The notes beneath the pieces are model-generated. The model saw nothing but the letters and a program-made list of their open reading frames with translations. It did no database searches and was not told where the DNA came from. A stretch of DNA of 49,835 bases from Bdellovibrionales bacterium (GTDB taxonomy: Bacteria > Bdellovibrionota > Bdellovibrionia > Bdellovibrionales > UBA1609). Below are positions 28,606-49,554 of the stretch, piece by piece. Location of the stretch: positions 1 through 49,835 of the forward strand of contig JAHDIR010000018.1 in NCBI GenBank assembly GCA_020630675.1. Direction: 5' to 3'. Made by a program: the position numbers and the translations under genes. Positions within the stretch are counted from its first letter, which is position 1. The number at the start of each line of letters is the position of its first letter.

Positions 28606-29730
28606 ATGGCTAAAAAATCTGAAATCATGGTCACTGACAGTGAAGAAAACACTGCTTTTATTGATATGTCAGACGTTAAAATTAAAAAATTAAACCTTTG
28701 GAAAGGATGGTTCTGCGGCCTTGGCATGGAGAATATAAATATTCTAAATAGTGGACGAACTTTTGGCGCTGTTTGCAAAAGTGGAGGAGAGCTTGGCAAC
28801 ATTTATAAAAGTTTTGAGTTAAAAAAAGAACCAACAATTTGTCCTGTCGAGTCTTGTCATTGTGGCTCAGATATTTTTATTCCCAAAGCAAAAACAAAGG
28901 CTGAATTTGATAAAATTAAAAAGCATGATATCAATGCTCCCAGAGCTGTACTCGATAAAGCTATCGCATTTGATGGTAACTTTAAACTAAGAGAACTTAA
29001 TCGTATTGCTATTAATTGGAATGTTGGAAAACGATGTAATTTTGATTGCAGTTATTGTCCTGAATATGTTCATGATAAAAAAAGTCCCCACATACCTATG
29101 ACTGACTTTATGCAAGCGATTACAAACTTAGAAAAAAATCTTTCTGATGATAAAAAAATGAAAATTACTTTTTCTGGTGGTGAGCCCACCATTAATCCTA
29201 ATTTCTTTGCTTTTGTTAGCTATCTCAAAAATAAATTTAAAGAAGATATTACACTCGTTACTAATACCAATGGTAGCCGCACTAAAGACTATCTTTATAC
29301 TCTTAATAAGTTTTCGTCCCTTTTGTTCTCCGTACACCTTGAGTTTATTGACGTCGAAAAATTTATCAAAAAAATTTACTTTTTGGCCGAGAAAAGGCGC
29401 GATGAGGTTAAAAACTCTAAAGAGCACTTCATGACCATAAAAATTATGGTTACCCCCGATACGGTGACAAAAGGAAAAGATTTATTTTTTGAAGTCATTA
29501 AGGCAAGAAAATCGGCCCATGAATTCAAAGTTTCCATTGAACCCATTGTTAACAAAGAAGATGGATTTAAACTTTTAGAGTATACTCCTCAGCAAAAAAA
29601 ACTGGTTCAGCAAATTAATGAATACGATCGGCTAATGCAAAAAAACCTTAGCGCCTGGATTAAATACTTTACCAATAAAAAAATTCTAAAATCTAAACAA
29701 AAAATAAATGATACGATTGCAAGTCTTTAA
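28606..29730 (+). CDS. Radical SAM protein with N-terminal auxiliary cysteine domain
   Basis: Radical SAM enzyme of 374 residues. The [4Fe-4S]-SAM motif is C144-NFD-C148-SY-C151, followed by TFSGGEPTINPNF, the GGEP SAM-binding strand. Residues about 32-95 form a cysteine-rich domain (C37, C57, C79, C84, C86) with a WFCG...I.I...G...C....LGNIY pattern, which looks like the SPASM/Twitch-type auxiliary domain normally found after the barrel. The barrel is closest in this window to the protein at 46362 (shared RCNFDC.YC and GGEPTI.P.F), where the comparable cysteine domain is C-terminal. AAGGA lies ten bases before the ATG. Substrate unknown; no peptide substrate gene is adjacent. Confidence 0.85.
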   Translation: MAKKSEIMVTDSEENTAFIDMSDVKIKKLNLWKGWFCGLGMENINILNSGRTFGAVCKSGGELGNIYKSFELKKEPTICPVESCHCGSDIFIPKAKTKAEFDKIKKHDINAPRAVLDKAIAFDGNFKLRELNRIAINWNVGKRCNFDCSYCPEYVHDKKSPHIPMTDFMQAITNLEKNLSDDKKMKITFSGGEPTINPNFFAFVSYLKNKFKEDITLVTNTNGSRTKDYLYTLNKFSSLLFSVHLEFIDVEKFIKKIYFLAEKRRDEVKNSKEHFMTIKIMVTPDTVTKGKDLFFEVIKARKSAHEFKVSIEPIVNKEDGFKLLEYTPQQKKLVQQINEYDRLMQKNLSAWIKYFTNKKILKSKQKINDTIASL

Positions 29731-34135: not shown

Positions 34136-35641
34136 TTAAATTTGCAAGAAAGAAGGCAGCTCTTTGTAAATGATAGGGTCAACATAGTGTCGATAAAATA
34201 TTTTGGCCGTATTTGACAGCAGCATATGACGCTTCATATTGCTGTGACTATACTCGTTTCTTTCATATTTTCCAAACTGATGAAAGGCTGCCACTGAGCT
34301 CAACTTAAACGCTAGCCCCTTTCGAAACAAACGATAACCCAAGTCGGTGTCTTCAAAACCATAGTTTAAAAAAATCTTGCGAAAGCGCCCCACCTCTAAA
34401 AAATCTTTTCTTTTAAGAGCCAAGCCAAATGTACAAATATATTTCCATGGGCATCTGTAGCTCATCCAATTACCTTCATCTTCATAAAATTTCTTCCAGT
34501 AGCCATCATTTGGGTGAAATGAATTTTTATCAATATCAAAATCAGAACGATTTAAGTGAGAAATTTTCACTCCTTCATTTAAATAGTATCTCTTTATTTG
34601 AACCACAGAATGTTGCTTGAGTTCTAAAATTATTTTTTCAAGAGAATCTTTTAAAAATACAATATCTGCATCACTAAAAAGTAAGTCCTCACCCACGGCT
34701 TGTTTTACGCCCACATTTCTAGCTAAACCAGCACGAAACCTCTGATCTCCAGGTTGCCTAGGAATAATTCGAGGGTAATGAATAAGCTTAAAATTTATTT
34801 GAAAGCCTAACTTATGAAAGTTTTCCATAATAAAATCTGTTGTGCCGTCAGAGCTACCGTCATCGACTAAAATAATTTCGTAAGCTTCTTTTTTTATAGT
34901 TTGGTTATTTAAAAATTTTAAAGTTTGTAAGACTTCATTTTTGTTGTTGTAAGACGGTATAACTATGGATAGTTGTGGCTGAGAGGAATTGATCTTGTTT
35001 TCAAAAATAGGCTGAAAGCTGGCTTCTAAATCCATATCCTGAGCCACGCGGGTGTCATAAATATCGTGATCGGCCTCAAACTGTTTCTGATTAAGGTTTT
35101 TATCTTTTTTCATGAGCTCAGAGTGAAACTTAAACATTTCCCTACATTTTAAATACTTTTTCTTTCCTTTTTCATTTTGCAAAAAAATAAACTTTATTTT
35201 TGCCCGAACTGGTGCTGACAAGCTCAACCAATGTTTAACTATACCCTTCCAGTTTTGCTTGGTTACAATTAAATTAACCTGTGAAAACTCTGTGCGAACC
35301 AAGACAGGGGCCGATGTTAATTTTTCAAGACCGTCGGAAAGAACCTCAACCCTGTGGTAAGCCTTTAGTTTTTGCTGAGAGGCTCCTTTTAGGTCATCAA
35401 TATGAATTTGTAGCACTAAATTATTGTGTTCTAATTTGAGTGATTTCAAAAATGCATTATCACTCTTAGTCCCTTCAAAATTACAAGGTAATAACAAAGA
35501 CTTATAAGGAAGCATTTTTTGGGAAAGCCTTGGGCCATCCAAGGGGGTTAAATCTTGATGGGATTTACTGCCCCAATCTGAACAAAAATCACAAGCTTTA
35601 GAGCAGTTTTTTTTAAATTTTAATTTATAATGATTAACCAT
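34136..35641 (-). CDS. Fusion of a degenerate radical SAM-like domain with a GT2 glycosyltransferase
   Basis: 501 residues in two parts. Residues 224 to about 460 are an inverting GT-A family 2 glycosyltransferase: LSIVIPSYNN, VDDGSSDGTTD (D260, D261), metal-binding DAD (324-326) and GFEDTDLGYRL (E430, D431). Residues 1 to about 175 begin with a strand and C13-SKA-C17-DF-C20, the exact CX3CX2C spacing of radical SAM enzymes, and continue as alternating strands and helices that could be a half or partial barrel. The GGEP strand is missing; LLLPCNFEG occupies that place. Fusion of these two domains is unusual. It is divergent from the repeat-bearing GT2 gene at 35734. Glycosyltransferase activity is likely; radical chemistry is uncertain. 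Confidence 0.75.
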   Translation of the reverse strand: MVNHYKLKFKKNCSKACDFCSDWGSKSHQDLTPLDGPRLSQKMLPYKSLLLPCNFEGTKSDNAFLKSLKLEHNNLVLQIHIDDLKGASQQKLKAYHRVEVLSDGLEKLTSAPVLVRTEFSQVNLIVTKQNWKGIVKHWLSLSAPVRAKIKFIFLQNEKGKKKYLKCREMFKFHSELMKKDKNLNQKQFEADHDIYDTRVAQDMDLEASFQPIFENKINSSQPQLSIVIPSYNNKNEVLQTLKFLNNQTIKKEAYEIILVDDGSSDGTTDFIMENFHKLGFQINFKLIHYPRIIPRQPGDQRFRAGLARNVGVKQAVGEDLLFSDADIVFLKDSLEKIILELKQHSVVQIKRYYLNEGVKISHLNRSDFDIDKNSFHPNDGYWKKFYEDEGNWMSYRCPWKYICTFGLALKRKDFLEVGRFRKIFLNYGFEDTDLGYRLFRKGLAFKLSSVAAFHQFGKYERNEYSHSNMKRHMLLSNTAKIFYRHYVDPIIYKELPSFLQI

Positions 35642-35733: not shown

Positions 35734-37659
35734 ATGGGATTAAGCAATACAATTTCAGTGGTCATTCCCACGCACAAACGCCCTGCTGGCTTAAAAAACT
35801 TGCTTCAATCTTTGGTCAACCAAGACCTAGAACCTCATAAGTTTCAAGTGATTGTGGTTTCTAATTTTCATGACAAAAAAAGTGAACAAGTCGTTAATGA
35901 TTTTTCTCACCAACTATTTGACCTTAAATATTATGTGAGTGAACAAAAGGGCTGCAATATTGCCCGTAACTTTGGCTTACGCTTTTCATCTTGTGATATT
36001 GTTTATTTTGTAGATGACGACTGTGTTTTGAACTCCACGTCTCAACTACAACAAATTTTGAATTATCATAATTCACACCCAGATGCCTCAGGAATTGGCG
36101 GCGGCTATTTAGATCGAGAAGAAAACTTAAGTGCCTCTGAAGTTATTTACTCCAAAAATGCAAATCTTTGGCTAAAAAAATCAGCCAATGACAAAAATGA
36201 AACCCATCATTTGATTGGTGGAAACGCTTCTTACAAAAGAAACGTTTTTGAACAAGGCTATAACTACGACTCAAAAATAACTTTTGGTGGTTCGGAGGTA
36301 AGCCTTACCAAGCGCCTTTTTAATCATGGTCATAAACACTTGTTCTTTGAAGAGCTGAGCATATTACACGACTTAAAAGTGAATACATTTTCTATTCTCA
36401 AAAAAGGGTTTATGCAAGGGCGTGGAAAGCTTATAAACTCCTCCCACCATGAGGCTGATGTATTTGCAAGTCACATAAAAAGCATTATACCGCAAAAAGA
36501 CAATACTGTTGAACTTCAATCTGGCTACCAGTCACTCGTATGGTTTTTATTTCACCTAATGTTCAAGTTTGGTTTTCATTGGAGTTATTTTTGTCGCAAG
36601 AATAATATTAAAAATTGGCTGGGTGCCTTGGGAGCCTTTGGCTTTTTAGGAAAATATTTTTCTCTAAAAGTTCAAACCCGACAACGAAAGGTAAATATTG
36701 AATACAAAAGACAAACCAATAGGCTTTTTTGGTTTTCCGTGCGTGTGAAAAATTTTATTCGCCGAGGTTTTCGTTTTGTTGGTATTAAAGTTCATTGCTC
36801 ATGGAAAAAGATTAATTCTTTTTTTATAAAACATTACTACTCTCTTTCGAAAAAAATTCAAAAATTTTTACAGCGTTTAACTCGCCAGCTCTACTGGTGG
36901 CCAAATAAATTAAAAAAACATTGTCGGCGCCTTTACCACAAAACTTATAAACTCATACTAAGAAGAATATATTGGCTGCCTGGAAAGGTCGTACGGAACT
37001 GCAGGGCATTATACTTTAAGCTACATAAAATAATATTTCGAAAAATATACTGGCTGCCCGGAAAGGTGATGAGAATGATAAGAAACTTTTACTATAAGTT
37101 AAATAAGTATGTTTTTAGAAAAATATACTGGTTGCCTGGCAAAACTGTACGAAATTGCAGGGCCCTTTACTTTAAATTTCATAAAATTATTTTACGAAAA
37201 ATATACTGGCTACCGGGAAAGATGATGAGAATAATAAGAAATTTCTATTTTAAGTTAAATAAATATGTTTTTAGAAAAATATACTGGTTACCGGGAAAAA
37301 TCATGAGAACTCTTCGAACAGGCTACTACAAAGCGCGAAAATTTTGTTTACATAGCTACTATAAAATTAACAAAAAAATGATACGTCCCCTTTTCTGGTT
37401 GCCCGGAAAGATTAAGCGCAGTGCCTATAAGTATTTCCGAAAGGTGAAATACTTTTTTATAAAAACTTATTGGATTTTATACTCTTTGGGCTGGAAAATA
37501 CGTGGTTTTGTACAAAGCATTCCTTGGAAACTACGAGAGTATTGCTACAAAAAAGGCAGCCTTTTATGGCTAATATACTCTGCTCTGACAAAGCCCTATT
37601 ATTTTTTAAGATATCAGTTCAATAAAAGGCTTAGAAAGAAAACACTTTCAAAATCTTGA
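35734..37659 (+). CDS. GT2 glycosyltransferase with C-terminal basic WLPGK tandem repeats
   Basis: 641 residues. Residues about 6-240 are a GT-A family 2 domain: ISVVIPTHKRP, GCNIARNFGL and VDDDC (D94-D96, metal site). Residues 260-310 are hydrophobic and aromatic, possibly a membrane-associated segment. The rest is extremely basic and aromatic. Four perfect 26-residue units beginning IYWLPGK (412-437, 438-463, 464-489, 490-515) are flanked by diverged copies at 386, 516 and 553. Units 1 and 3, and 2 and 4, resemble each other most. The repeats alternate Arg/Lys with Tyr/Phe/Leu, as in amphipathic helices lying on an anionic membrane or lipid A. The gene is monocistronic, divergent from the fusion gene. 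Glycosyltransferase call is firm, repeat function is inference. Confidence 0.85.
   Translation: MGLSNTISVVIPTHKRPAGLKNLLQSLVNQDLEPHKFQVIVVSNFHDKKSEQVVNDFSHQLFDLKYYVSEQKGCNIARNFGLRFSSCDIVYFVDDDCVLNSTSQLQQILNYHNSHPDASGIGGGYLDREENLSASEVIYSKNANLWLKKSANDKNETHHLIGGNASYKRNVFEQGYNYDSKITFGGSEVSLTKRLFNHGHKHLFFEELSILHDLKVNTFSILKKGFMQGRGKLINSSHHEADVFASHIKSIIPQKDNTVELQSGYQSLVWFLFHLMFKFGFHWSYFCRKNNIKNWLGALGAFGFLGKYFSLKVQTRQRKVNIEYKRQTNRLFWFSVRVKNFIRRGFRFVGIKVHCSWKKINSFFIKHYYSLSKKIQKFLQRLTRQLYWWPNKLKKHCRRLYHKTYKLILRRIYWLPGKVVRNCRALYFKLHKIIFRKIYWLPGKVMRMIRNFYYKLNKYVFRKIYWLPGKTVRNCRALYFKFHKIILRKIYWLPGKMMRIIRNFYFKLNKYVFRKIYWLPGKIMRTLRTGYYKARKFCLHSYYKINKKMIRPLFWLPGKIKRSAYKYFRKVKYFFIKTYWILYSLGWKIRGFVQSIPWKLREYCYKKGSLLWLIYSALTKPYYFLRYQFNKRLRKKTLSKS
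36889..37467 (+). repeat. In-frame 78-bp repeats in a 156-bp higher-order array
   Basis: Coding repeats of 26 codons. The two dimers at 36967-37122 and 37123-37278 are the best-conserved pair. Between corresponding units I count 17 codons differing synonymously and 6 differing in amino acid, so the protein sequence has been kept while the DNA drifted. Diverged units flank the array on both sides. Confidence 0.9.
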
Positions 37660-37748: not shown

Positions 37749-38444
37749 TTACACCTCTCCAATAACCATGAAGCGGGTATAGTCCTTAAATTGTTTTTCC
37801 CCCTGGAAGTGAACTTTACTTAACCGACAATCTTCAACAAAATCGTCTAAACTGTCAGCGCAGTTAGTGTGTTGAACATGTAAGTCATAGTCATTACTTT
37901 GTAAGGCTACTTTTTTACCTTCGGGTAACATATTACGCCAAACAGAAAAATCAGCAATATGCTCACAAGAAGTGTTAATTAATAAGTCATTTCTCTCAGT
38001 TAAAGTGGCTAGCTCACCCATACCATTTTTGGTTTTAAGGGTGACCATCTCATAATTTAAATCAAATATATCTGCGGGAAAAGCCTTGAACTTCCACTTA
38101 TTATTAAACCAATCAATATTCATACTGTCTGCAATGTCGACGCACGCTTCATCTAGGTCGATGGAACGAATTTTTTCTATATTAAACTCATCTCGATCAG
38201 ATAAAATTGCAGCCATTAATCCATACCAACCACAAAGAATATGTACAGCACCCAAGTCTTTTCCAAAACAATTTAAAAGCTCTTTTTTAAGCCAAACCTT
38301 ACTAATGATTTGATTACGACTAAAGGCATCTGAAAAATCAATTTCTGGATAGCGCGCCATGGTTTTTCTTAAATTTTTTATTAAAGAACTTTCGGTATAT
38401 TCTTCTATTCCTTGAATTAAGTTAAGCGCTTTCGTTAAGTTCAT
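37749..38444 (-). CDS. Class I SAM-dependent methyltransferase-like protein
   Basis: 231 residues. The central part fits a Rossmann methyltransferase: GAVHILCGWYGLMAAIL stands for motif I (G-rich loop), and IRSIDLDEACVDIADSMN for the acidic-ended second strand that binds the SAM ribose. DLLINTSCEHIADFS follows in the motif IV position. The motif I glycine pattern (CGWYG) is unusual. The gene overlaps the upstream Twitch radical SAM gene by four bases (ATGA), so the products are made together and may act on the same substrate. The methyl acceptor is unknown. Confidence 0.68.
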   Translation of the reverse strand: MNLTKALNLIQGIEEYTESSLIKNLRKTMARYPEIDFSDAFSRNQIISKVWLKKELLNCFGKDLGAVHILCGWYGLMAAILSDRDEFNIEKIRSIDLDEACVDIADSMNIDWFNNKWKFKAFPADIFDLNYEMVTLKTKNGMGELATLTERNDLLINTSCEHIADFSVWRNMLPEGKKVALQSNDYDLHVQHTNCADSLDDFVEDCRLSKVHFQGEKQFKDYTRFMVIGEV

Positions 38445-39841
38445 AAAGACTGAGGCTCCAGTAACTCTATCATTTCAGGAAAAGTACTCTTAAAATCTGT
38501 ATTTCTAATTTTATCCATTTTAACAATGTATTCGTAAAATTCTGGCATTCTATTTGACCAATCCTCTGAGTTCATAAAACTCACCATCCCCTTTAACCGT
38601 TTTATTCCATAGGTATTTTCAAGAAATTCTTCGTCATCTCTAAAATTCTCTTTTAACCAATCATAAAATTCTTCGTACTTTTTCACAATTTTCTTTTTAA
38701 AATTTTCCGGAAACACTTTTACATTTAAATGTGCTGGGTGATAAACAAAATGATAATTAATCATTCCCGCCCCCAACGGCCAAGGATTAATTTTTTTGTA
38801 ATTCTGTTTTAACTTCCACTTAATAAAGTCAGGTATATAAAACATATTTAGCATTTGCACAGCACAGGCAATGGTGACTTCGATATGATCGTCAGTATTA
38901 TCTAATTTTCTGAGTTGTTTCTCAATAGAAGACCAAGCCGATGGGTGCCTAATATAGTCATTCATAGATCCAATGCTATCAATACTAAAGTGAAACCTAA
39001 CTCTTTTAAAGTGCTGCCAAAGATCATAAAGCCTGTCTGGCATTTCTATTCCATTACTATTATAACGAAGAACGATTTGTGAGGCATAGCCCCTATCAAT
39101 ACACTCCTGAAGAAGCTCGTAATGCTCTTCAATAATAGTGCTCTCTCCCCCGGCAAAATAAAGTTGCTTCATATGTGGTATTTGGTCATAAAGTTGCGAC
39201 CAAAACTGAGGGTTGTCCTTGTGCCAGTTATAGGTGGCCCCATCTACTTTGCCATGATTATCCCATACCATTAGTTTTTTTAGCGGAGCGCTTTCAATCT
39301 CTGGGTAAAGTTTTTTCCAATCTGACACCCACATAGAACTATCGTGAGGTGAACACATAATGCACTTGAGGTTACACTTCGTGCCCAAACGTAAATCTAC
39401 ATAATATAGTTTAGGGGGAACACTTCCGTCTTCTTTTGTGTCTGCTATGAGTTCATCAAGATTCACTCGACTTTGCCAATATTCGGTCTCCCAAATTCTT
39501 TTTGAGCGATGCCCAGCAAGCTCTTCTTTAAAGCACTTCACACAAGACGGCGGAACTTCATTATTAAGCATTTGATGACGGACACTTTTCATATAGTTAT
39601 TATTCCAGCCCGATAGTAGGTCTGTATGATTCAAGTTTGCTGGCTTACCATCGTCATTTTTTAAAATACCAACTTCACCGCCAAATTTTTTCTTATTTGT
39701 TTTACCTGCTGACGAAGCATTTGCCGTACAGCAAACCCTTAGATGCCCATTAGGTCGAGTTGAAAGATGAATCCAAGGCAAGACACAAAATGTACTATAT
39801 TTTTCTTGTAAATGAGACGGAAGGTTTTTCATATAAGGCAT
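38441..39841 (-). CDS. Radical SAM protein with N-terminal Twitch-type domain
   Basis: 466 residues. The N-terminal cysteine domain has FCVLPWIHLSTRPNGHLRVCC (C19, C37, C38) and C100-VK-C103, the pattern seen before the barrel in Twitch-containing radical SAM proteins. The radical SAM motif is C156-NLK-C160-IM-C163 and the SAM-binding strand reads YFAGGEST (230-235, E233). The paralogue at 45040 shares the order, the RSKRIWE/RSRRIYE segment and a NWH..NP.FW / NWHN.PSFW motif. Last-but-one gene of the minus-strand block; overlaps the methyltransferase gene by four bases. Similar families occur in bacterial surface-polysaccharide loci and, to my memory, in marine phages. Substrate unknown. Confidence 0.88.
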   Translation of the reverse strand: MPYMKNLPSHLQEKYSTFCVLPWIHLSTRPNGHLRVCCTANASSAGKTNKKKFGGEVGILKNDDGKPANLNHTDLLSGWNNNYMKSVRHQMLNNEVPPSCVKCFKEELAGHRSKRIWETEYWQSRVNLDELIADTKEDGSVPPKLYYVDLRLGTKCNLKCIMCSPHDSSMWVSDWKKLYPEIESAPLKKLMVWDNHGKVDGATYNWHKDNPQFWSQLYDQIPHMKQLYFAGGESTIIEEHYELLQECIDRGYASQIVLRYNSNGIEMPDRLYDLWQHFKRVRFHFSIDSIGSMNDYIRHPSAWSSIEKQLRKLDNTDDHIEVTIACAVQMLNMFYIPDFIKWKLKQNYKKINPWPLGAGMINYHFVYHPAHLNVKVFPENFKKKIVKKYEEFYDWLKENFRDDEEFLENTYGIKRLKGMVSFMNSEDWSNRMPEFYEYIVKMDKIRNTDFKSTFPEMIELLEPQSL

Positions 39842-39974
39842 ATCTTTCTATAACCTATTTGAAGGTAGTTAATCAATACTCATCAATGCCAAATCTTTAT
39901 TACTTTATGTCTTAAAAACATATTTACTCTCTCAATGAAAAAAGAGAACTTATAGGTTGTCTGCCAAGATCGTT

Positions 39975-41069
39975 TTATGTTCTTGTCTCATTGGCTTCAA
40001 ACTGAGCGGCAAAAGGATTAAATTCTTGGCCACAAGTTTTTGCACAGGCCTTTAGTTTTCCATTTTTAATTGATGAGCAATTCCAAGACTCAGGAAGAAT
40101 ATCTTGAAAAAAGGATCCATTTACAATGTGTTCAACACTATCATGAAAAGCACTTATACCTTCTATCCCACCACTTTTATCCAACAAACCCCAAATAGGA
40201 GAGCTCTTTGGCTTAAAGTACCACGGATATAACTGGTTAGCTGTCCAACAGCAAGGAAAGACATGGCCTTGAGCACTAATGTAAAGCGATTTTTCTTTTT
40301 CCACGCGGCAGCTAATGGGCGTTTTATCCAAGTAGTTTATAAGACTACCATACTTTTCCACCAAAGCTTTTTCTTTTTGCAAAGATGTATTCTGGTATTT
40401 TTCATTCAACGGCTTTTTTAAAGTGTATTCAATATTTTGATTTTTATCAAAAACCACTTGCTCATCTTTACCAGTAGACAAAGTGTTACTAAAAAACCTC
40501 CCCGTTTTTTTGACTACAAACTTATGAAAACCCATTTTTTTGCTCAGTGACCTTGCCTCTTCCACTTGATGTTCGTTATGAGCAAAAACTATAAAGTCCC
40601 AAATTGCCTTTCCACCTGCTTGAATAAAAGCTTCACAATTGTCCATAATTTTATCAAAGCTAGTATTTCTGCGGTAAATATGATTTGTATCAGCCAGGCC
40701 ATCTATACTGAAATTAATAGAGTTTATTGATTTGCCTAAAGTGTGCCAAAACTGGGTCGACCTTAAAGATCCGTTGGTAAACAGATCTAACCGTAAAGAA
40801 GGATTATGAGATTTAAAGTATTCAAAAATTTCAAGTAAGTCTTTTGCTGTTGCAGGGTCTCCGTAGTTTCCGCACAAGTATATTCTATTAAGTTGTTTTA
40901 AAAAATGAGGAGTAAAAATCTTCTTAGCTTGAGATAAATTTATTTCTTCAAGTGGAAGCTGAGGGTTTATAGACCCACCACAAATAGTTCGTAAACACAT
41001 AGGACAGGCCGCATTGCATTTACTTGATATCTCCAAATGAACAGTCTTAATTTCTGAGTATTTATACAC
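39975..41069 (-). CDS. Radical SAM/SPASM-type protein
   Basis: 364 residues with the classic order: radical SAM barrel first (C18-NAA-C22-PM-C25, then YLCGNYGDPATAKDL in the GGEP position, with GD-P rather than GGEP, and NFSIDGLADTNHIYRR), and a C-terminal SPASM-like domain (ISCRVEKEKSLYISAQGHVFPCC..., later WNCS and CAKTC). This is the layout of enzymes that modify peptides or sugars using extra Fe-S clusters. It lies 18 bases downstream of the radical SAM gene at 41088 on the same strand, so co-transcription is likely; 133 bases separate it from the next gene. Substrate unknown. Confidence 0.87.
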   Translation of the reverse strand: MYKYSEIKTVHLEISSKCNAACPMCLRTICGGSINPQLPLEEINLSQAKKIFTPHFLKQLNRIYLCGNYGDPATAKDLLEIFEYFKSHNPSLRLDLFTNGSLRSTQFWHTLGKSINSINFSIDGLADTNHIYRRNTSFDKIMDNCEAFIQAGGKAIWDFIVFAHNEHQVEEARSLSKKMGFHKFVVKKTGRFFSNTLSTGKDEQVVFDKNQNIEYTLKKPLNEKYQNTSLQKEKALVEKYGSLINYLDKTPISCRVEKEKSLYISAQGHVFPCCWTANQLYPWYFKPKSSPIWGLLDKSGGIEGISAFHDSVEHIVNGSFFQDILPESWNCSSIKNGKLKACAKTCGQEFNPFAAQFEANETRT

Positions 41070-41087
41070 TGATAACCACCACGATAA

Positions 41088-42269
41088 CTATCGACCTACT
41101 ACTGGAGGACCAAAACCAGTTTGCTCCATAATTTCAATTGATGGGTAAAGTGGCCATTTTGTTCCTGGCTTTCTTTTGGGAATTTTACTATCAGCACTAC
41201 TGACACAGCTACTGCTAATACAAGGGGCCGGTTGATCAAATAGTTTAAAACCCTTACCAATAAAGCCTAAAGGCTTATCAGCGCAGCTATAACTTCTTTT
41301 AATCGAGCCATCAGGCTCACGAATAATAATGCTTCGAAAACCTGCAGAGCACTCCCAGTCTTTAAAATTATTAAATCCAAAAGCGTTAAAGCGTTCGGCT
41401 TGATCGATATACCACTTTTTGCCATCACTGGCGTTCATTTCAACTTGAAAAGAATCTGTAATAGATTTTTTAAGGCCAAGGCGAGTTTTAGGTACAAGTT
41501 CCGCAGAATCAGGTTTTGCTTTTGGAGTTGGTAAAACTCTCACGCTACTTTTTCTCTGAATAAATTTGGTCTTAATTTGTTGAGGTAAACCCTTTTTCAT
41601 AAGATCTCGCATCCAGGGCTCATAGGCATCAACAACTGCCGTTGCCGTAGAATTACTTTGCGGCTTCAAGGTTACATTGAGCCCAGCGTGATGAAAGTAA
41701 TGAGCATTAATCCACAACTTTTGAAAAAATTCTGGCACCATAACAATGTTAATTGTTATATAAATCCCCTCTTCTTGTAATAAAAGAAGTTTTTCACGAA
41801 ACTGCTCTCGGTCGGCAAACTCATGGTGATAACTTGCCGTAATACTGACTTTATCAATTGGCTTGGTAACTTCTAAGTACTTTTTAAACCAAAATTTTCC
41901 GGGGCTAAGGTTAGAAGTCATATGCAAACTTTGAAAATTTGTATTTACTGTGTCATCGGCGTAGTGCTGCAGTAACTCCAGATAGCCTTTGTGTAAAGTG
42001 GGCTCTCCCCCACTAAAAGAAAAGTGAAAAGAGTTAAACCCCCTTTCCCTAGATTGCTTTTTTATTTCACGCATTGTGTCTTTTAAGAGTTCTGTCGAGC
42101 GATGATCTTTTTGAGTACTACTAGCATAAGGCCAACAATAAGAACAGCTGTAATTACAATACCTTCCAAGAAGCCAACTCACGCAAAATAAATCTTTGTT
42201 AAGTAAGCTCTTTTGGCCAACACTCTCGATTTGATCAAATGGAATTTGTGTGAAATCGTAGTTTTTCAT
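41088..42269 (-). CDS. Radical SAM protein with C-terminal auxiliary cysteine domain
   Basis: 393 residues; first gene of the minus-strand block. The radical SAM motif is C38-NYS-C42-SY-C45, followed by FHFSFSGGEPTLHKGYLELL. The C-terminal region has WECSAGFRSIIIREPDGS, YSCADKPLGF and PCISSSC, an arrangement like a SPASM/Twitch auxiliary domain. Its counterpart in the plus-strand block is the protein at 46362, which has the same order and a comparable NW-C...C...C..C tail. A promoter-like TTGCAG-18-TATAAA lies upstream on the minus strand. Substrate unknown. Confidence 0.87.
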   Translation of the reverse strand: MKNYDFTQIPFDQIESVGQKSLLNKDLFCVSWLLGRYCNYSCSYCWPYASSTQKDHRSTELLKDTMREIKKQSRERGFNSFHFSFSGGEPTLHKGYLELLQHYADDTVNTNFQSLHMTSNLSPGKFWFKKYLEVTKPIDKVSITASYHHEFADREQFREKLLLLQEEGIYITINIVMVPEFFQKLWINAHYFHHAGLNVTLKPQSNSTATAVVDAYEPWMRDLMKKGLPQQIKTKFIQRKSSVRVLPTPKAKPDSAELVPKTRLGLKKSITDSFQVEMNASDGKKWYIDQAERFNAFGFNNFKDWECSAGFRSIIIREPDGSIKRSYSCADKPLGFIGKGFKLFDQPAPCISSSCVSSADSKIPKRKPGTKWPLYPSIEIMEQTGFGPPVVGR

Positions 42270-42298
42270 TTTAAAACTTTAGTTAAAGAGGTTACTAT

Positions 42299-42328
42299 TT
42301 TATATCAAGATCTACCAAATAACTGCAA
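42299..42328 (-). promoter_or_regulatory. Probable promoter of the minus-strand radical SAM block
   Basis: On the minus strand TTGCAG and TATAAA are separated by 18 bases and end about 30 bases before the ATG at 42269. The perfect 12-bp palindrome ATGACTAGTCAT (42331-42342) abuts the -35 and could be an operator serving both directions. Confidence 0.45.
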
Positions 42329-42428
42329 AAATGACTAGTCATAAATACTCTAACCATGAATATAAAAATTTGAATTGTAGGTTATTTTATATAAAAATAT
42401 TGAACGCAAGTCAGAGCTTTGAGCCGGC

Positions 42429-43700
42429 TTGAGCACAGGGGCATATTTTATCAAAAAAATTATACATATATTATTATCAGTTTTGATTTTTTTATCGTTA
42501 GTTATAACTTTTGATTGTATTGCTTATTTATTTTATGGGGATCAAACTCACAATTACAAATTATACGTAAAAAGGTCAAAGAAAATTTCCTCAGAAAACT
42601 CTAGCTCTTTCACTAAAGACTCAAGTTTAATAACCAGGAATTTCACACAGTTTACAAATGAAAGAAAAATAGCCCACCCTTATCTTGGCTATACCTTTTA
42701 TCCGAGCCCTGAAATTGGCTTTAATCGAGATGGCTTTAGAGACTTTACTGACTTTCAAAAGATTAACAGCGCTAATTTTGTCATTGGAATTTTTGGAGGT
42801 TCCGTTGCCAGTGAGTTCGCAAGAAGCCTCAGTGATAAGGACGCGGCCTCTCTACTTGGAAAATTAAGTGAGATTAATCCTATATTTCATAATTTTCCTA
42901 ATATTAAATTTTTAAATTTTGCTATTTCTGCTTACAAACAGCCTCAGCAATTTATAGCAGCAACTCTCTTCTCAAAAAACATAAATTTTAGTATAAACAT
43001 TGATGGTTACAACGAAATTGTTACTTCAAATGGGTTGGAGTACCCAACTTTATTTCCTCAATACTCTCCGTTGCTTTATTCAAAAAATGATGTTTATTTG
43101 AAGAAATACTTCATGCTTCAGGAGGCTATAAATAATCGATTGAATTTCACTCTTCAAATAAAGGAATCAAAACTTCTATCCAAAAGTAAGTTGGTGCACT
43201 TATTTTGGAAGTCTTATTTAAAATTATCAAAACATAAAGAAAAAGAGATTTATTTAAATTTAAAAAAACATAAAGTCGCTAACTCAAACTATTATTCACC
43301 TAAAGACTACAACCATGCTAGATCTAACAAAGCCAATGTGTGGAAAGAATATATAAAAAAGCAATATGATTTCTTGAATTCACAAAAAATACCAAGCCTT
43401 TTCTTTTTGCAGCCAAACCAATATGTTAAAAACTCCAAAAAATACAGCAACGAAGAGTTACAAAAATTTATTTTTACAAGTAATAAAAATGTCTTTGTAT
43501 CAAAAGAGTATGAGAACCTAAAAAAAATTACATTAAATTTTAACCAAAGTGGCCTGCCTATTTTTGATCTAACAAAAATTTTTTCAAATACAAAAGCCAC
43601 AACTTATCGTGATAATATTTGCCATCTCAATAAACTTGGTAACAAAATTATGAAAGCTCATATTTTTAAAAAAATTATTCACCATTATAAAAACAATTAA
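42429..43700 (+). CDS. Membrane-anchored SGNH/GDSL-hydrolase-like protein
   Basis: 423 residues with one N-terminal membrane helix (IIHILLSVLIFLSLVITFDCIAYLF) and a large extracytoplasmic or periplasmic domain. SGNH-type blocks can be traced: VIGIFGGSVASEF (Ser of block I), FLNFAISAYKQPQQ (block II glycine region degenerate), NIDGYNEIV (block III Asn-like) and DNICHLNKLGNKIM near the C terminus (D-x-x-H of block V). Such proteins add or remove acyl groups on surface glycans. Only a TTG is available as start in a suitable place (42429) and it has no clear ribosome-binding sequence. First gene of the plus-strand block; 20 bases before the next radical SAM gene. Catalysis is inferred. Confidence 0.65.
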   Translation: MSTGAYFIKKIIHILLSVLIFLSLVITFDCIAYLFYGDQTHNYKLYVKRSKKISSENSSSFTKDSSLITRNFTQFTNERKIAHPYLGYTFYPSPEIGFNRDGFRDFTDFQKINSANFVIGIFGGSVASEFARSLSDKDAASLLGKLSEINPIFHNFPNIKFLNFAISAYKQPQQFIAATLFSKNINFSINIDGYNEIVTSNGLEYPTLFPQYSPLLYSKNDVYLKKYFMLQEAINNRLNFTLQIKESKLLSKSKLVHLFWKSYLKLSKHKEKEIYLNLKKHKVANSNYYSPKDYNHARSNKANVWKEYIKKQYDFLNSQKIPSLFFLQPNQYVKNSKKYSNEELQKFIFTSNKNVFVSKEYENLKKITLNFNQSGLPIFDLTKIFSNTKATTYRDNICHLNKLGNKIMKAHIFKKIIHHYKNN

Positions 43701-43720
43701 AATAACACGAGAGCTCACTT

Positions 43721-44986
43721 ATGAACAATAAGACAGAACAAAAAATTGCTTGCTATATTCCATGGGTTTCTATTTGGCCAACTCCGCAAGGGCAGGTGTA
43801 TCCATGCTGTGCTGCTAAAAACTCTCATGCACTCATTGGAAATTTAAAAGAAGATAGACTCAAAAATATTTTCAATAGCTCAAAAATGAAGGAGTTAAGG
43901 TTAAAATTTTTAACTGGAAAAGTTGACCCAATAGTTTGTCAAAAATGTGTAAAAAGAGAAAAGGCCCAGGGAAGCTCAATGAGAACAATGATTAATAAAT
44001 TATATTCAGACAAAGATGAGTTTTTTAAAAAAAAAACTAATCTTAAGGGTGAGTTTAGTAACTTCAAAATACTCTTCCTAGACTTTGTATGGTCAAATAA
44101 ATGTAATTTCAAATGTTCTCATTGCAAACCAGCATTTAGCAGTGCTCTCGGTTCTGACAAACGACTTAAGAACTTCTACAAATATAACTACAAAGGCGTG
44201 GAATCAATTCAGGATATTAACTCTAATACAATAGGCGATGTTTTTGATGTTCTCTCAGAAGTTGAAACAATTCACTTCAATGGAGGAGAACCTTTTCTAA
44301 TTCAAGAACACTACGACATTCTTGATTACTTAATAAGTATAAAAAGAACAGATGTAAAACTATGGTTTCATACCAATGGATCCAAGCTTGGGTTCGGCAA
44401 AAATAATATCTTGCACTATCTTGAAATTTTTAAAAATGTTAAAATATCTGTGAGTCACGATGGCTTTTCCAAATGCGGTGAGTTTGTTCGCAAAGGCTAT
44501 TCAGACGTAGTTTTTTTAAAAAACTATAAAATGCTCCAAAAGTATTGCCGTAGCGTTTACCCAGCGTTTTGTGTTCATGCTCTTAATCTTCCCTACTTAA
44601 CTGATACTATTGATTGGTATTTTAAAAACAATCTTATTGATGATCAGCAGTTACCTTCTATTAATATAATAACTGAGCCCAAACATATGAACTTTAAAAT
44701 TCATGACGAAAAAACTCTAGAAGAAGTGAGTATTCAAATGAAAAACTGGTTATACAAAAATACCTACCCCAGAAGAATACTTCATCAAGTTGAAAAAATT
44801 GCTAATGATATTGCTGATCTACACAGCCCAAATTCAAAAGACAATGATAGTTATTTAAAACTATCACAATACTTAAGTGCAAAAAAAGACTCAGGTCAAA
44901 ACCCAAGGCTTTTTATCCCCAAACTAAATAACTTCTTTAATTGGTTAGAAAAAAAATATCCGGAAAACTTCCCCTTAAATACTTAG
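43721..44986 (+). CDS. Radical SAM protein with N-terminal Twitch-type domain
   Basis: 421 residues. The N-terminal domain has C11-YIPWVSIWPTPQGQVYP-C29-C30, NLKEDRLKNIFNS (the 'lGnl....l..i.ns' segment) and C73-QK-C76. The barrel follows: C128-NFK-C132-SH-C135 and TIHFNGGEPFLIQEH as SAM-binding strand, then VSHDGFSKCGEFVRKGYSD. There is no C-terminal cysteine cluster. GAGAG about eight bases before the ATG supports the start. It sits between the SGNH-like gene and a second Twitch-first radical SAM gene. Substrate unknown. Confidence 0.88.
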   Translation: MNNKTEQKIACYIPWVSIWPTPQGQVYPCCAAKNSHALIGNLKEDRLKNIFNSSKMKELRLKFLTGKVDPIVCQKCVKREKAQGSSMRTMINKLYSDKDEFFKKKTNLKGEFSNFKILFLDFVWSNKCNFKCSHCKPAFSSALGSDKRLKNFYKYNYKGVESIQDINSNTIGDVFDVLSEVETIHFNGGEPFLIQEHYDILDYLISIKRTDVKLWFHTNGSKLGFGKNNILHYLEIFKNVKISVSHDGFSKCGEFVRKGYSDVVFLKNYKMLQKYCRSVYPAFCVHALNLPYLTDTIDWYFKNNLIDDQQLPSINIITEPKHMNFKIHDEKTLEEVSIQMKNWLYKNTYPRRILHQVEKIANDIADLHSPNSKDNDSYLKLSQYLSAKKDSGQNPRLFIPKLNNFFNWLEKKYPENFPLNT

Positions 44987-45039
44987 TTTACAGCTTTGTT
45001 ATTTGATGTTAGTTATGGTAAAAACCATTGGCAGCACAC

Positions 45040-46362
45040 ATGAAAAGATCAAAAACAAATTTTTGCCCAATACCGTGGCTGTTTCAGGCTGTACGATCAA
45101 ATGGAGACCTTCGTGTTTGCTGTCAAGCCAATGTATCTGCAAATAGAGGCTTACTCTTTAAGCACGAAAGCAAAACCCCATACAACGCAAGCTCTGACTC
45201 ACTTGAAGAAGCTCGCAATAGTGATGTCATAAAGAAAATGAGACAAAACATTCTAAATGGAATTTGGGATGATAACTGTAAACGATGTAAGGATGAAGAA
45301 AGTAACGGCCTTCGATCAAGACGAATCTATGAAAATGAACAATGGGATTTTAATGAAAGTTGTGCTCAAAGGGTAACTTCTATTAACGGTAAAATTAACA
45401 CATCTGAAGTTCCCATAAAATATTACGACTTGAGATTTGGTAACCATTGTAACTTGGCCTGCCGAATGTGTGGCCCCGCAGATAGTTCTGGTTGGTACAA
45501 AGATTGGGTTTTACTTAAAGAACGTTATAGCTTCAACGACACTCATGGGAAAGTTAACTTAACTCAAGTAGGCAATAAACTCACAACACAAGATTACAAT
45601 TGGCACAACAGCCCTTCATTTTGGAAACAACTGCAAACCAATATGAATAACATAATGCATATTTATATGGCCGGTGGAGAACCACTGCTTATTAAAAATC
45701 ACTATCAATTCTTAAGAGAATGCGTAAAACAAGGACGCGCAAAAAAAATAATTCTTGAGTACAACACTAACTGTACAATTGTACCCAATTTGGTGACAGA
45801 GTTATGGTCTCATTTTAAACAAGTCCGTATTGGAGCAAGTATTGACGGTTTTGGAGATTATATTGAATACCAAAGATATCCCTTAAAGTGGAAAGAAGTA
45901 CTAAAAAATCTTTATCTCATAAACCAGCTGCCTTCCAACATTGTTTGTTGGTTCGCTTTCACCGTTACGAGCTATAATATCTTTCACTTAACCGATTTTA
46001 TGAAATGGAAACTTATAGACTCTAAGCTTCACAAATTTAATTCTTCTCGCAAAAGACCAATCATAACTCCTCATATGGCTCATAAGCCATATCACTTAAA
46101 TATCCGAGCTCTGCCTCGCGAGCTAAAGATACAAGTACTTGAGAAATTTAAAAATTTTAATGCATGGATAATGCAGGAGCCCTTCAGCAGTAACTTGAAA
46201 GATGAATCTTTGAGAATTACTGATAATATTTCAAACTATATGATGACCCAAAATTATAACAATGACTACTGGCCAGAGTTTTGTAGCTTCACCACCAAAC
46301 TAGATAAAATTCGAAAACAAAACTTTCTGAGTTTACAACCAAACTTTAAGGAATTTTTTTAA
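45040..46362 (+). CDS. Radical SAM protein with N-terminal Twitch-type domain (paralogue of 38441)
   Basis: 440 residues from ATG 45040; a TTG 12 bases upstream is in frame but unnecessary. The N-terminal domain has FC9PIPWLFQAVRSNGDLRVC27C28 and C80-KR-C83. The barrel has C137-NLA-C141-RM-C144 and YMAGGEPLLIKNHYQFL. The order, the RSRRIYENEQW segment, a shared GPADSSGWYKDW / SPHDSSMWVSDW stretch and an NWHN.PSFW motif make it a clear paralogue of the protein encoded at 38441 on the other strand. Its stop codon and the ATG of the next gene overlap (TAATG), indicating translational coupling. Substrate unknown. Confidence 0.88.
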   Translation: MKRSKTNFCPIPWLFQAVRSNGDLRVCCQANVSANRGLLFKHESKTPYNASSDSLEEARNSDVIKKMRQNILNGIWDDNCKRCKDEESNGLRSRRIYENEQWDFNESCAQRVTSINGKINTSEVPIKYYDLRFGNHCNLACRMCGPADSSGWYKDWVLLKERYSFNDTHGKVNLTQVGNKLTTQDYNWHNSPSFWKQLQTNMNNIMHIYMAGGEPLLIKNHYQFLRECVKQGRAKKIILEYNTNCTIVPNLVTELWSHFKQVRIGASIDGFGDYIEYQRYPLKWKEVLKNLYLINQLPSNIVCWFAFTVTSYNIFHLTDFMKWKLIDSKLHKFNSSRKRPIITPHMAHKPYHLNIRALPRELKIQVLEKFKNFNAWIMQEPFSSNLKDESLRITDNISNYMMTQNYNNDYWPEFCSFTTKLDKIRKQNFLSLQPNFKEFF

Positions 46363-47534
46363 TGTCTGAGCCACTATCAATTATTAAATCTTTAAGCCCC
46401 AGCCCAATGTTGATCTCTTGGGATCTTGGACGAAGATGTAACTTTGATTGCACTTACTGCCCAGCACATAGGCATGACAGTACCAGCCCACATGCGCAAC
46501 AGAATGAACTCGAAACGACAGCTGATTTTGTTTACAAATACTTAAGCCTACTAATGCCTTATAGGAAAACTAAAAAAGTAAGTATTAGCTTTACTGGTGG
46601 AGAACCAACTATTCATCCGAAGTTCATTGATTTCTGCAAATGGTTAAGAACCACATATGAAAATAATTATCAGAAACAATACAAATTAAATTTAAGCCTA
46701 ACCTCTAATGGGGCAACATCCAAAGCAATTTGTGACGCTATTATTGAAAATTTAAATTTCATTACTATCTCCTACCATTGCGAAGGCCCTGAAAGACTCA
46801 AAGAAAAAGTTTTAGAAAATATTCTTTACTTCAAAAAAAATAAGTTTCCAATGAAAATAAATGTCATGTTTCACGCCAACCCAACTTACTTTCAAGAGTG
46901 TATTCATCTTTGTAAATTTTTATCTAAGCATGACATAGACTTTGTCCCCCGCATGATCGGAGAACATGATGATAACAACAAATACAATCACAAATATGAA
47001 GCATCGCAATTAAAATGGATGAAAGAATTCTGGAGAAGTGGTAGCTTAGATGAAGTAAATCTCTCAGACTCAGAAGATAATAATGAAAACTTAGACAAAA
47101 AAGTAATTCATAAAAAAAATGCCCGCAGCCTTGGCCGTCCATGTTGTGGAAAAAGAAAGATGGCTACCTGCAGCTCACAAAATAACCAATGGTCAGAAAC
47201 AAGCTTCTTAAGTTTTACAAAATTTAAAAATTGGCATTGTTCTGTTAATTGGTTTTTTCTTCATATCGAACAACAGAATAAAGCCATTTATCACCACCAA
47301 ACCTGCCAAGCAAGATTTGACGGTACTCGAGGAGCAATTGGAAGCACAGATGCTCCTGAAATAATTTTAAATAATTTAAAGAAACAACTCACGCAAAAAA
47401 AAATGCCAATTATTGTTTGTCCTAATAAAATTTGTGGGTGTGGCCTCTGCACTCCAAAGGCCTCTGAGCTAAATAGCCTGATATCGGCACTACCAGATCA
47501 CATAGACACTTCTGTTTTCGAGAATACTCAGTAA
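46362..47534 (+). CDS. Radical SAM protein with C-terminal auxiliary cysteine domain
   Basis: 390 residues. The radical SAM motif is C26-NFD-C30-TY-C33 and the SAM strand is SISFTGGEPTIHPKFIDF. The C-terminal domain has NWHCSVNWFFLHIEQQNK, HHQTCQARFDGTRGAIGS and VCPNKICGCGLC, the last cluster unusually dense. It is coupled to the upstream Twitch-first gene by TAATG with AAGGA about eight bases before the ATG. It pairs functionally with its neighbour in the same way as 41088 may pair with 38441. The 3' end overlaps the end of the convergent membrane-protein gene by seven bases. Substrate unknown. Confidence 0.88.
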   Translation: MSEPLSIIKSLSPSPMLISWDLGRRCNFDCTYCPAHRHDSTSPHAQQNELETTADFVYKYLSLLMPYRKTKKVSISFTGGEPTIHPKFIDFCKWLRTTYENNYQKQYKLNLSLTSNGATSKAICDAIIENLNFITISYHCEGPERLKEKVLENILYFKKNKFPMKINVMFHANPTYFQECIHLCKFLSKHDIDFVPRMIGEHDDNNKYNHKYEASQLKWMKEFWRSGSLDEVNLSDSEDNNENLDKKVIHKKNARSLGRPCCGKRKMATCSSQNNQWSETSFLSFTKFKNWHCSVNWFFLHIEQQNKAIYHHQTCQARFDGTRGAIGSTDAPEIILNNLKKQLTQKKMPIIVCPNKICGCGLCTPKASELNSLISALPDHIDTSVFENTQ

Positions 47535-48367
47535 AGATGTCTTTTGTTTTGCCAATTAAATACTCCCGGGCATATGAATATAGCCAATACAACGTATAGT
47601 GATTCAAAAAAAAGTATGGATAAAAGAAGTTTAGTACTTATATGAAAGAAGAGGATTAATACGCCATGTGGTAAATTTAATTCAACTTTAAAACACATAA
47701 AAAATTGCAAAACCTGAACTACCACAACTATTAGAAACGAAATATACAAAAAATCTGGGTAACCTAAAACAAATGATGCAAAATTTGTTAAAGGTACCTC
47801 CTCTGATATCCATCTCGACATGATATGAGACGCAGCAACATTGTAATTGAATATTGAGCCAGAAAATATTTTATTTATTCCAGCCAATAAATACGTCAAA
47901 GAACATATAACCTGGGCACCCATTAAAAACCTTATATTTTCTATTAGTTTTCTTTTGTTATTGCAGTTAAAAATTTTTCCAAAAGCAAAAAAAATTGCCG
48001 TTAATACCCATAAATGTAAATTGTGAGACACCTTACCAGATGAGTAATGAGTTGAGACATTAATGAACAAAAATAAAGCAAAACCTAATCTAAATAATTG
48101 ATGGAATGGATTTATCGCTGATAATATTGAAAAAATAAACTGTAGCATAAAGGAAATAATTAAAAAATAATATCTACCTTCTATAATCTCAAGCCACAAA
48201 ACAGACCATATTGGCTCCGGCATTAGAAAAAAATTTTTATTCGGGAGCCAGTCATAAAATATTGACTTTAGTGACAGAAGTATTGAAAGCAAATAATAAA
48301 ATTTGATAGAAATTATTGATGATGCCGACCTAACTCTAAGCTTTTGAAAACTACCTATACTCTTCAT
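47528..48367 (-). CDS. Multi-pass membrane protein, possibly HTTM-like
   Basis: 279 residues, mostly hydrophobic, with at least six probable membrane spans. Between spans lie polar aromatic loops such as FSGSIFNYNVAASHIMSRWISEEVP and the late FHISTKLLLSILFFESLYVVLAIFICP. The pattern (paired Trp/Pro loops and a His in a membrane-proximal segment) recalls HTTM proteins, distant relatives of vitamin K-dependent carboxylase, but I cannot confirm it. Coupled to the small membrane protein upstream by a four-base overlap (48364-48367). It is convergent with the radical SAM gene at 46362. Confidence 0.55.
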   Translation of the reverse strand: MKSIGSFQKLRVRSASSIISIKFYYLLSILLSLKSIFYDWLPNKNFFLMPEPIWSVLWLEIIEGRYYFLIISFMLQFIFSILSAINPFHQLFRLGFALFLFINVSTHYSSGKVSHNLHLWVLTAIFFAFGKIFNCNNKRKLIENIRFLMGAQVICSLTYLLAGINKIFSGSIFNYNVAASHIMSRWISEEVPLTNFASFVLGYPDFLYISFLIVVVVQVLQFFMCFKVELNLPHGVLILFFHISTKLLLSILFFESLYVVLAIFICPGVFNWQNKRHLY

Positions 48368-48861
48368 TCGACACAGTTCCTATTATTAATGCGAATTATA
48401 GGAGTTTTCATAGTACTTTGAATTTCAAGATCATCTAATTTTTTTGCAGCACTTAACTCATAGTTTACTCTCTTAATCCGAAAAGTAACATTACAATAAT
48501 TTGTGAACAATGACTTAAACAGTATCTCTATATCACCCTCCTTACCAGCTTTAGACATTCTAAATACTTTCTTTAAAAGTTTATATTTAAGGTCGGAAGG
48601 AATTTTTGTTGTCGACGGCAAGGTAAAATCTTTTATTTTCTGGCTATTTAAATAATTAAAAGAAATAATTTCAATACTATACCTGCTTTCATGTTTTTTA
48701 TAATGATCAAACATTGACCAACTTGAAATCGGAAATATCTCTTTGTTTTTATAAATGACAAGACTGCCAAAAAAAGTATGCCCTACATGTAATATAACAA
48801 TAAAAAATACTAAACGCATAGCATGACTATTACGTAATTTTTTTTTTAACCTTAGTGCCAA
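48364..48861 (-). CDS. Small single-span membrane protein, partner of the multi-pass protein
   Basis: 165 residues: a basic N terminus, one hydrophobic segment (MRLVFFIVILHVGHTFFGSLVIY) and an extracytoplasmic domain of about 125 residues including PISSWSMFDHYKKHES. A TTG start at 48861 is preferred over the ATG at 48819 because TGGAG lies seven bases before it, whereas the ATG has nothing. Its stop overlaps the next gene by four bases. A WSMF-type segment after the helix is, from memory, common in small proteins paired with HTTM-like proteins. Function unknown. Confidence 0.55.
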   Translation of the reverse strand: MALRLKKKLRNSHAMRLVFFIVILHVGHTFFGSLVIYKNKEIFPISSWSMFDHYKKHESRYSIEIISFNYLNSQKIKDFTLPSTTKIPSDLKYKLLKKVFRMSKAGKEGDIEILFKSLFTNYCNVTFRIKRVNYELSAAKKLDDLEIQSTMKTPIIRINNRNCVE

Positions 48862-48897: not shown

Positions 48898-49554
48898 TTA
48901 ACGTTGATGCAATTGATTTAAAACTAGTTTATATGTTTCTTCATTCAACTCAACATTCAAGACCAATATCAAGGCATTGGGCTTAAAGCTAACCAAAGAA
49001 TGAACAAGTCTTGTATTCATAAAGTACAACTTTGCCGTATCGAAATGCAGTAACCTTCCATCTAAATTCACGTGCAAAGAAGATGGAGAACAATTAAAAA
49101 AAGCTATCAGACGAAAAACTTCACATCCCTCCCAGTATGCATCTCTATGAGGAGGAAATATACCTCCTTCATCAAGTTTTATTAAATGTGATCTACCAAG
49201 AAATTTTGTAAAAAATTTTAAAGAAGAAGAAATTGAAGAAAAATGGCTCCAATATTTTGTGGGAGCCTTAAAAGACATCTCGCCGTATTGAGTTCCATTC
49301 ATTTTATTCCATTCAAATACTGAATTTAAATCAATTTCTCCATTAGACTTACCATCAATTGAAAAAAGACTTAAACCAAACCTATTCGACCAAGGCTTGC
49401 TCTTATTATATGGAATCCAATCATTTTTGACACTCATTAGTTCACGCCTAAAAACATTTTCATCTACAGATGTTTTAAGAGAGTAAAAATTACCCAATGA
49501 TGATAATCTTCCAAATAAATATTCATAATTTTTATTTTTTTCTAAAACTTTCAT
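48898..49554 (-). CDS. Fe(II)/2-oxoglutarate oxygenase-like protein (Asp/Asn hydroxylase type)
   Basis: 218 residues. The second half has the double-stranded beta-helix facial triad: H136 and D138 in FPPHRDAYWEG, and H185 in NTRLVHSLVSF. R148 (EVFRLIAFFN) or a later basic residue may bind 2-oxoglutarate. This matches aspartyl/asparaginyl beta-hydroxylase-like and other small Fe(II)-dependent oxygenases, some of them phage-encoded. The N-terminal half is unrecognised. No clear ribosome-binding sequence precedes the ATG. It heads a minus-strand group with the two membrane-protein genes (36-base gap). Substrate unknown. Confidence 0.72.
   Translation of the reverse strand: MKVLEKNKNYEYLFGRLSSLGNFYSLKTSVDENVFRRELMSVKNDWIPYNKSKPWSNRFGLSLFSIDGKSNGEIDLNSVFEWNKMNGTQYGEMSFKAPTKYWSHFSSISSSLKFFTKFLGRSHLIKLDEGGIFPPHRDAYWEGCEVFRLIAFFNCSPSSLHVNLDGRLLHFDTAKLYFMNTRLVHSLVSFKPNALILVLNVELNEETYKLVLNQLHQR

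Follow-up and report, generated by a model that had tools for sequence, protein, structure and literature searches.

A radical SAM enzyme set shared by Bdellovibrionota chromosomes and T4-type marine phages, with a possible role in surface-sugar tailoring

Why does a member of the Bdellovibrionota, the phylum of predatory Bdellovibrio-type bacteria, carry six radical S-adenosylmethionine (SAM) genes within 9.1 kb? The genes lie in a stretch of 49,835 nucleotides (the window), which is the entire contig C26 of a 3.1-Mb Bdellovibrionales genome. From the sequence alone, they had been read as a duplicated two-enzyme module that tailors a surface glycan or glycolipid, each copy being specialized for its own acceptor. 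The island itself is confirmed: six intact open reading frames (ORFs), three per strand, each encode a CX3CX2C motif, here named A1, C1 and D1 on the minus strand and C2, A2 and D2 on the plus strand (Table 1). The genome yields 22 matches to the radical SAM profile PF04055, seven of them in the 50-kb contig and six in the 9.1-kb island, where 0.06 radical SAM genes would be expected by chance.

The CX3CX2C motif and PF04055 together place all six proteins in the radical SAM superfamily. C1, D1, A2 and D2 scored above the PF04055 cut-off in a profile search, and C2 passed it only together with neighbouring stretches (29.7). A1 stayed under this cut-off (25.5 vs 29.5) but passed that of NF033640 (N_Twi_rSAM, 170 bits), as did A2 and C2; C1, D1 and D2 did not reach it. 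NF033640 is a sequence family without an assigned function, and A1 and A2 form two orthologous groups inside it. Both had been called Twitch-first enzymes, a call that stands, and C2 brings the number of such enzymes from two to three. The blocks diverge from a 159-bp gap; promoter-like sites in this supposed divergent promoter are no commoner than in shuffled sequence.

Five of the enzymes, A1, C1, D1, A2 and D2, are components of one conserved set, as seen from gene content, co-inheritance, linkage and sharing with phages. A1 orthologues in Bdellovibrionota are 63–80% identical and patchily distributed, being present in 20 of 369 genomes. Among 60 relative genomes, A1 occurs in 12 and C1 and D1 in 14 each, and every one of the 12 A1-bearing genomes also has C1 and D1 (Fisher 6.5e-11, uncorrected for kinship). 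Of 18 Bdellovibrionota loci, 14 have C1 no more than 2.5 kb from A1 and 14 have D1 that close, although gene order and strand vary. Over 36 loci, A1, C1 and D1 also show correlated pairwise distances (Mantel 0.66–0.80). Relatives of B1, a putative methyltransferase-like Rossmann protein, accompany A1 in eight of the 18 loci. On one 936-kb contig (L049), a C1-like protein and relatives of D2, A2, D1, C1, A1, B1 and a further protein, GTx, stand in a single stretch.

The set is also found in viral DNA. Profiles of A1 and D1 each matched more than 500 IMG/VR stretches, with best identities among the matches listed of ~68% and ~60%, respectively. For the viral comparison, we checked 80 A1 loci, 80 D1 loci and 20 large records. 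Matches above cut-off to gp23 (the T4-type capsid protein) and/or terminase were present in 14 of the 20 records, including contigs of 180–382 kb, identifying host contigs of the set as T4-type phages by their virion genes. All 20 records carry 6–23 radical SAM genes each, and D1 is single copy in 18. C1 was found in 73 of the 80 viral A1 loci, and B1-like proteins and GTx in 69 each; of the 80 viral D1 loci, 19 have D2 and 13 have A2 no more than 3 kb away. Cultured phages gave three weak A1 matches (21–29%) and no D1 match. Several matches in metagenome-derived genomes outside the Bdellovibrionota look like binned phage DNA; a Rickettsiales MED657 contig of 46,940 bases is identical in length to one IMG/VR record that was also matched.

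Do the two strands carry copies of one module? A duplication would leave A1+D1 and A2+D2 as equivalent pairs, each serving its own glycan acceptor. The link between A2 and D2 is supported: the A2 stop overlaps the D2 start codon in the window, and of 16 phage D1 loci with both genes, 11 have them side by side. This coupling speaks for paired modules, as do the divergent orientation of the blocks, the relatedness of A1 and A2 (32% identity, 1.9e-79, BLASTP) and the G+C content over positions 42001–48000, which is 31–34% in the right block vs 35–37% in the left; the G+C contrast may reflect separate arrival. The resemblance between A1 and A2 is, however, distant, and the nearest relative of A1 in its own genome is a 67% identical copy on contig C40. 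D1 and D2, described as paired GGEP enzymes, give only a weak match to each other (22%, 5e-11, BLASTP). Neither pair is mutually closest, since A1 is nearer to the C40 copy and both A1/A2 and D1/D2 occupy separate clades. In a 64-row tree, built by a quick method and with several long end branches, D1 and D2 belong to different starred clades, of 30 members for D1 and 12 for D2 (98*), with long internal branches, and each clade mixes Bdellovibrionota and viral members. This comes close to the outcome, paired proteins in unrelated clades, that the sequence-only reading had itself named as its refutation. A 115-row tree (quick, simple model, with long-branch warnings) assigns A1 to one starred clade (37 members) and A2 to another (six members, 99*), both mixed bacterial and viral; besides the window protein, the A2 clade comprises three viral and two Bdellovibrionota sequences. 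The separate, mixed clades indicate that the enzyme types predate this genome.

Linkage also argues against two modules. C1 is tied to A1 as tightly as D1 is, and A2 and D2 share a gene run with D1 and A1; in one phage locus (L155), A2, D2 and D1 form an overlapping run. Because the phage D1 and D2 orthologues are adjacent and, at some loci, overlapping, they are better explained as two steps of one pathway than as copies, and the phage A2-D2-D1 run, together with the A2/D2 overlap in the window, is our main reason for reading the set as one pathway. We conclude that local duplication of the pairs is excluded. Both pairs may still go back to parallel duplications in the very distant past, and two modules with separate acceptors are very unlikely.

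What might such a pathway act on? We favour glycan tailoring by one multi-enzyme radical SAM pathway rather than by a duplicated pair, a view that we hold with evenly balanced confidence; the glycan context that had been proposed is thus plausible, and the duplication that went with it is not. It is favoured by glycosyltransferase neighbours, sugar-type tailoring genes in the phages, the published phage cassettes, the lack of a conserved peptide gene and the lack of a TGT gene in the phages checked. Glycosyltransferases stand repeatedly beside the set in Bdellovibrionota, where the commonest neighbours belong to the GT2 family (10 of 82 proteins, a raw count); relatives of GT1 occur in at least six other A1 loci and relatives of GT2 in several. 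Pfam supports both of these flanking glycosyltransferases, and the C-terminal model of GT1 matches the chondroitin polymerase K4CP (Z 24.4), RmlT and TarS. Phage neighbours comprise carbamoyltransferase, short-chain dehydrogenase/reductase (SDR), aminotransferase-like, nitroreductase-like and Asp-hydroxylase-like proteins and other 2-oxoglutarate (2OG)-type oxygenases; relatives of the window oxygenase at 48898 occur in 26 of the 80 viral D1 loci and directly beside D1 in eight. Within the flanks examined, Bdellovibrionota loci share no conserved small ORF near the set, which bears out the original observation that a peptide substrate gene is missing and leaves the enzymes without the conserved precursor gene typical of radical SAM maturases of ribosomally synthesized and post-translationally modified peptides (RiPPs).

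Protein modification is the strongest rival to glycan tailoring. The target would then be a protein of the pilus, surface or virion, modified as by the anaerobic sulfatase-maturating enzyme (anSME) or other peptide-modifying radical SAM enzymes, and the glycosyltransferases would glycosylate the same protein. The anSME and sactipeptide maturases share a radical SAM core and auxiliary cluster domains with the set and are the best structural matches of A1, and a sequence comparison of D1 with the PDB gave anSME as the best match. Twitch and SPASM domains are a typical feature of enzymes that modify peptides, phages would offer virion proteins for decoration, and Asp/Asn-hydroxylase-like oxygenases accompany the set. 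Unlike anSME and sactipeptide systems, however, the set has no adjoining substrate peptide or sulfatase, and the auxiliary domain of A1 precedes the radical SAM core. Bacterial and phage loci have no recurring candidate substrate protein in common next to the set, nor is there a conserved small ORF in the Bdellovibrionota loci; the partners that do recur are glycosyltransferases, carbamoyltransferases and SDRs. We consider protein modification unlikely. We regard it as doubtful, too, that the product is a small molecule or RiPP such as an antimicrobial or signalling compound. Many-enzyme radical SAM clusters with methyltransferases, carbamoyltransferases and aminotransferases do resemble aminoglycoside-like clusters, and a conserved protein of 53–77 residues is encoded in 15 of the 80 viral A1 loci (for example, L122:5500-5718) and on three metagenome-genome contigs. 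As a peptide substrate this protein was rejected: it is conserved over its full length, and none of the Bdellovibrionota loci tested encodes it. The bacterial loci contain no precursor-like ORF, and no exporter was recognized in the window island. Nucleic-acid modification, for instance 7-deazaguanine-type hypermodification of phage DNA, is scarcely credible. DNA modification is frequent in T4-type phages, a PP-loop (QueC-like) protein adjoins D1 in seven phage loci, and some bacterial neighbourhoods contain QueC matches, but the enzymes show no close relationship to QueE, such a role is not expected in Bdellovibrionota, and the TGT-superfamily transglycosylase that 7-deazaguanine DNA modification calls for was found in none of the 20 viral records (the control gave 14 of 14; the records may be fragments).

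Several observations weigh against the glycan pathway as we describe it. The predicted structure of A1 is about as close to peptide maturases (sactisynthase 5why, anSME; Z 9.4) as to BlsE (9.2) and DesII (8.7), so its fold does not tell the kinds of substrate apart. DesII, AprD4 and BlsE, radical SAM enzymes of sugars and nucleosides, are among the structural matches of A1 and perform the type of chemistry proposed here, but no sequence relationship to them was found and their structural scores equal those of the peptide maturases. A1 is also better conserved across the phylum than would be expected of an enzyme for a variable surface sugar. Many phage loci lack members of the set within 10 kb, and most of the viral contigs are fragments. 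GT1 and GT2 lie near A1 in Bdellovibrionota and were not seen in the phage loci; GTx, which has a DGD motif, is weakly glycosyltransferase-like (E 0.0026), gave nothing meaningful against the PDB and was not found in this genome. Finally, C2 and the SGNH-like protein show no tie to the core set.

Our specific proposal for glycan tailoring, which we put forward tentatively, is that a pathway of at least five radical SAM enzymes, common to Bdellovibrionota and T4-type ocean phages, makes a radical-modified surface sugar for the cell-surface/virion interface. For its substrate, chemistry and site, we infer the following course. The core common to large T4-type marine phages would consist of A1, C1, D1, A2 and D2 together with B1, and GTx would join it elsewhere. 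To judge from the family, each radical SAM enzyme would cleave SAM at the cluster bound by CX3CX2C to generate a 5'-deoxyadenosyl radical, and the extra Fe-S clusters would serve binding or electron transfer. Successive radical changes (epimerization, deoxygenation, formation of C-C or C-S bonds) would most probably be made on a sugar-nucleotide, a lipid-linked sugar or a glycan. The methyltransferase-like, oxygenase and SGNH proteins may tailor the product further, and GT1 and GT2 would attach it to a surface glycan. The site would be the cell in Bdellovibrionota, and the virion or the infected host in phages.

Marine T4-like phages rich in radical SAM genes were already known: the T4-like TARA_ERS488813_N000010 carries 12 (PMC5332604), and host-recognition clusters of pelagimyophages hold radical SAM cassettes with glycosyltransferase and tail-fibre genes (PMC7029224). 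Likened by description rather than by sequence, these phages (PMC5332604, PMC7029224) are, as here, large, of T4 type and endowed with many radical SAM genes. No defined enzyme set or function was named for them, whereas the present set comprises five orthologous enzymes that also occur in bacterial chromosomes. In the open-licence literature, we found nothing relevant on radical SAM enzymes in Bdellovibrio or in O-antigen or capsule loci, no report of the defined set, of its tight phage linkage or of its sharing with Bdellovibrionota chromosomes, and no explanation for the abundant radical SAM genes of large marine T4-like phages. A defined set narrows a diffuse list of phage auxiliary genes to one pathway, and bacterial chromosomes with the five orthologous enzymes provide a cellular system for testing its function. 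If the set does tailor glycans, it would add a several-enzyme radical SAM route to surface sugars and would point to an exchange of surface-modifying chemistry between a bacterial phylum and ocean phages.

The coordinates of the island and of other features of the window are collected in Table 1. D1 is a sharply separate orthologous group, in which sampled scores fall from 384 to 87, and its invariant C-terminal cysteines are C307, C329, C350 and C355. C1 has GNYGDP in place of the GGE found in the other radical SAM enzymes, and the alignment shows invariant cysteines at C18/C22/C25, C254, C273, C274, C342 and C346. C2 forms a long isolated branch in the Twitch-first tree. D2 is a single ORF in the window and two consecutive ORFs in many phages. 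In the seventh radical SAM protein of the window (28606), the D-type domains are reversed: D1 profile positions 276-374 align to residues 6-102 and positions 31-227 to residues 134-334. With D2 domains fused or split, this reversed order is a useful case for the evolution of radical SAM auxiliary domains.

Table 1. Features of the window, with their coordinates, strands and supporting data
Feature	Coordinates	Strand	Size and basis
A1, Twitch-first radical SAM enzyme, core of conserved set	38441..39841	-	466 aa; NF033640 431 bits
C1, radical SAM enzyme, SPASM-type C-terminal Cys cluster	39975..41069	-	364 aa; PF04055 38.8 bits
D1, GGEP radical SAM enzyme, C-terminal Cys cluster	41088..42269	-	393 aa; PF04055 43.6 bits
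B1, putative class I methyltransferase-like Rossmann protein	37749..38444	-	alignment motifs; A1 overlap 4 bp
C2, divergent Twitch-first radical SAM enzyme	43721..44986	+	421 aa; NF033640 255 bits
A2, Twitch-first radical SAM enzyme	45040..46362 (ORF opens TTG 45028)	+	440/444 aa; NF033640 366 bits
D2, GGEP radical SAM enzyme	46362..47534	+	390 aa; PF04055 45.4 bits
SGNH-like protein	42429..43700	+	GGS...DxxH motifs by eye
GT1, family 2 glycosyltransferase, extra ~210-aa N-terminal domain with CX3CX2C	34136..35641	-	PF00535 2.7e-21
GT2, family 2 glycosyltransferase, basic repetitive C-terminus	35734..37659	+	PF00535 1.2e-22
Putative Fe(II)/2OG-type (aspartyl-hydroxylase-like) oxygenase	48898..49554	-	motifs
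Seventh radical SAM protein, D-type domains reversed (cluster domain first)	28606..29730	+	D1 profile

The methyltransferase and SGNH assignments of the earlier description are based on motifs. B1 has no Pfam, NCBIfam or PDB family, a PDB search having given nothing meaningful; the SGNH-like protein has no Pfam or NCBIfam match, and the oxygenase at 48898 has no Pfam match. The N-terminal domain of GT1 is possibly a reduced radical SAM domain fused to the glycosyltransferase; profile comparison of this domain with radical SAM proteins is weak (best probability 34%), and the structure search with GT1 was dominated by glycosyltransferases. Its CX3CX2C motif is present in this genus and in one further locus (L057), and other relatives are without it. 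The C-terminal half of GT2 consists of basic repeats with recurring KIYWLPGK units. Two adjoining minus-strand genes at 47528-48861, one encoding a protein with multiple transmembrane segments, have no Pfam match and no relatives in the fetched loci. The second A1-type enzyme, the 67% copy on contig C40 (L025:10594-19509), lies near a fatty-acid-desaturase-like protein and several Asp-hydroxylase/2OG-oxygenase-like proteins. A distant relative (23%) of the SGNH-like protein adjoins a radical SAM array in another Bdellovibrionota genome (L031), and the island there (L031/L032; G051:C1:738001-778000) packs more than 12 radical SAM genes into ~30 kb.

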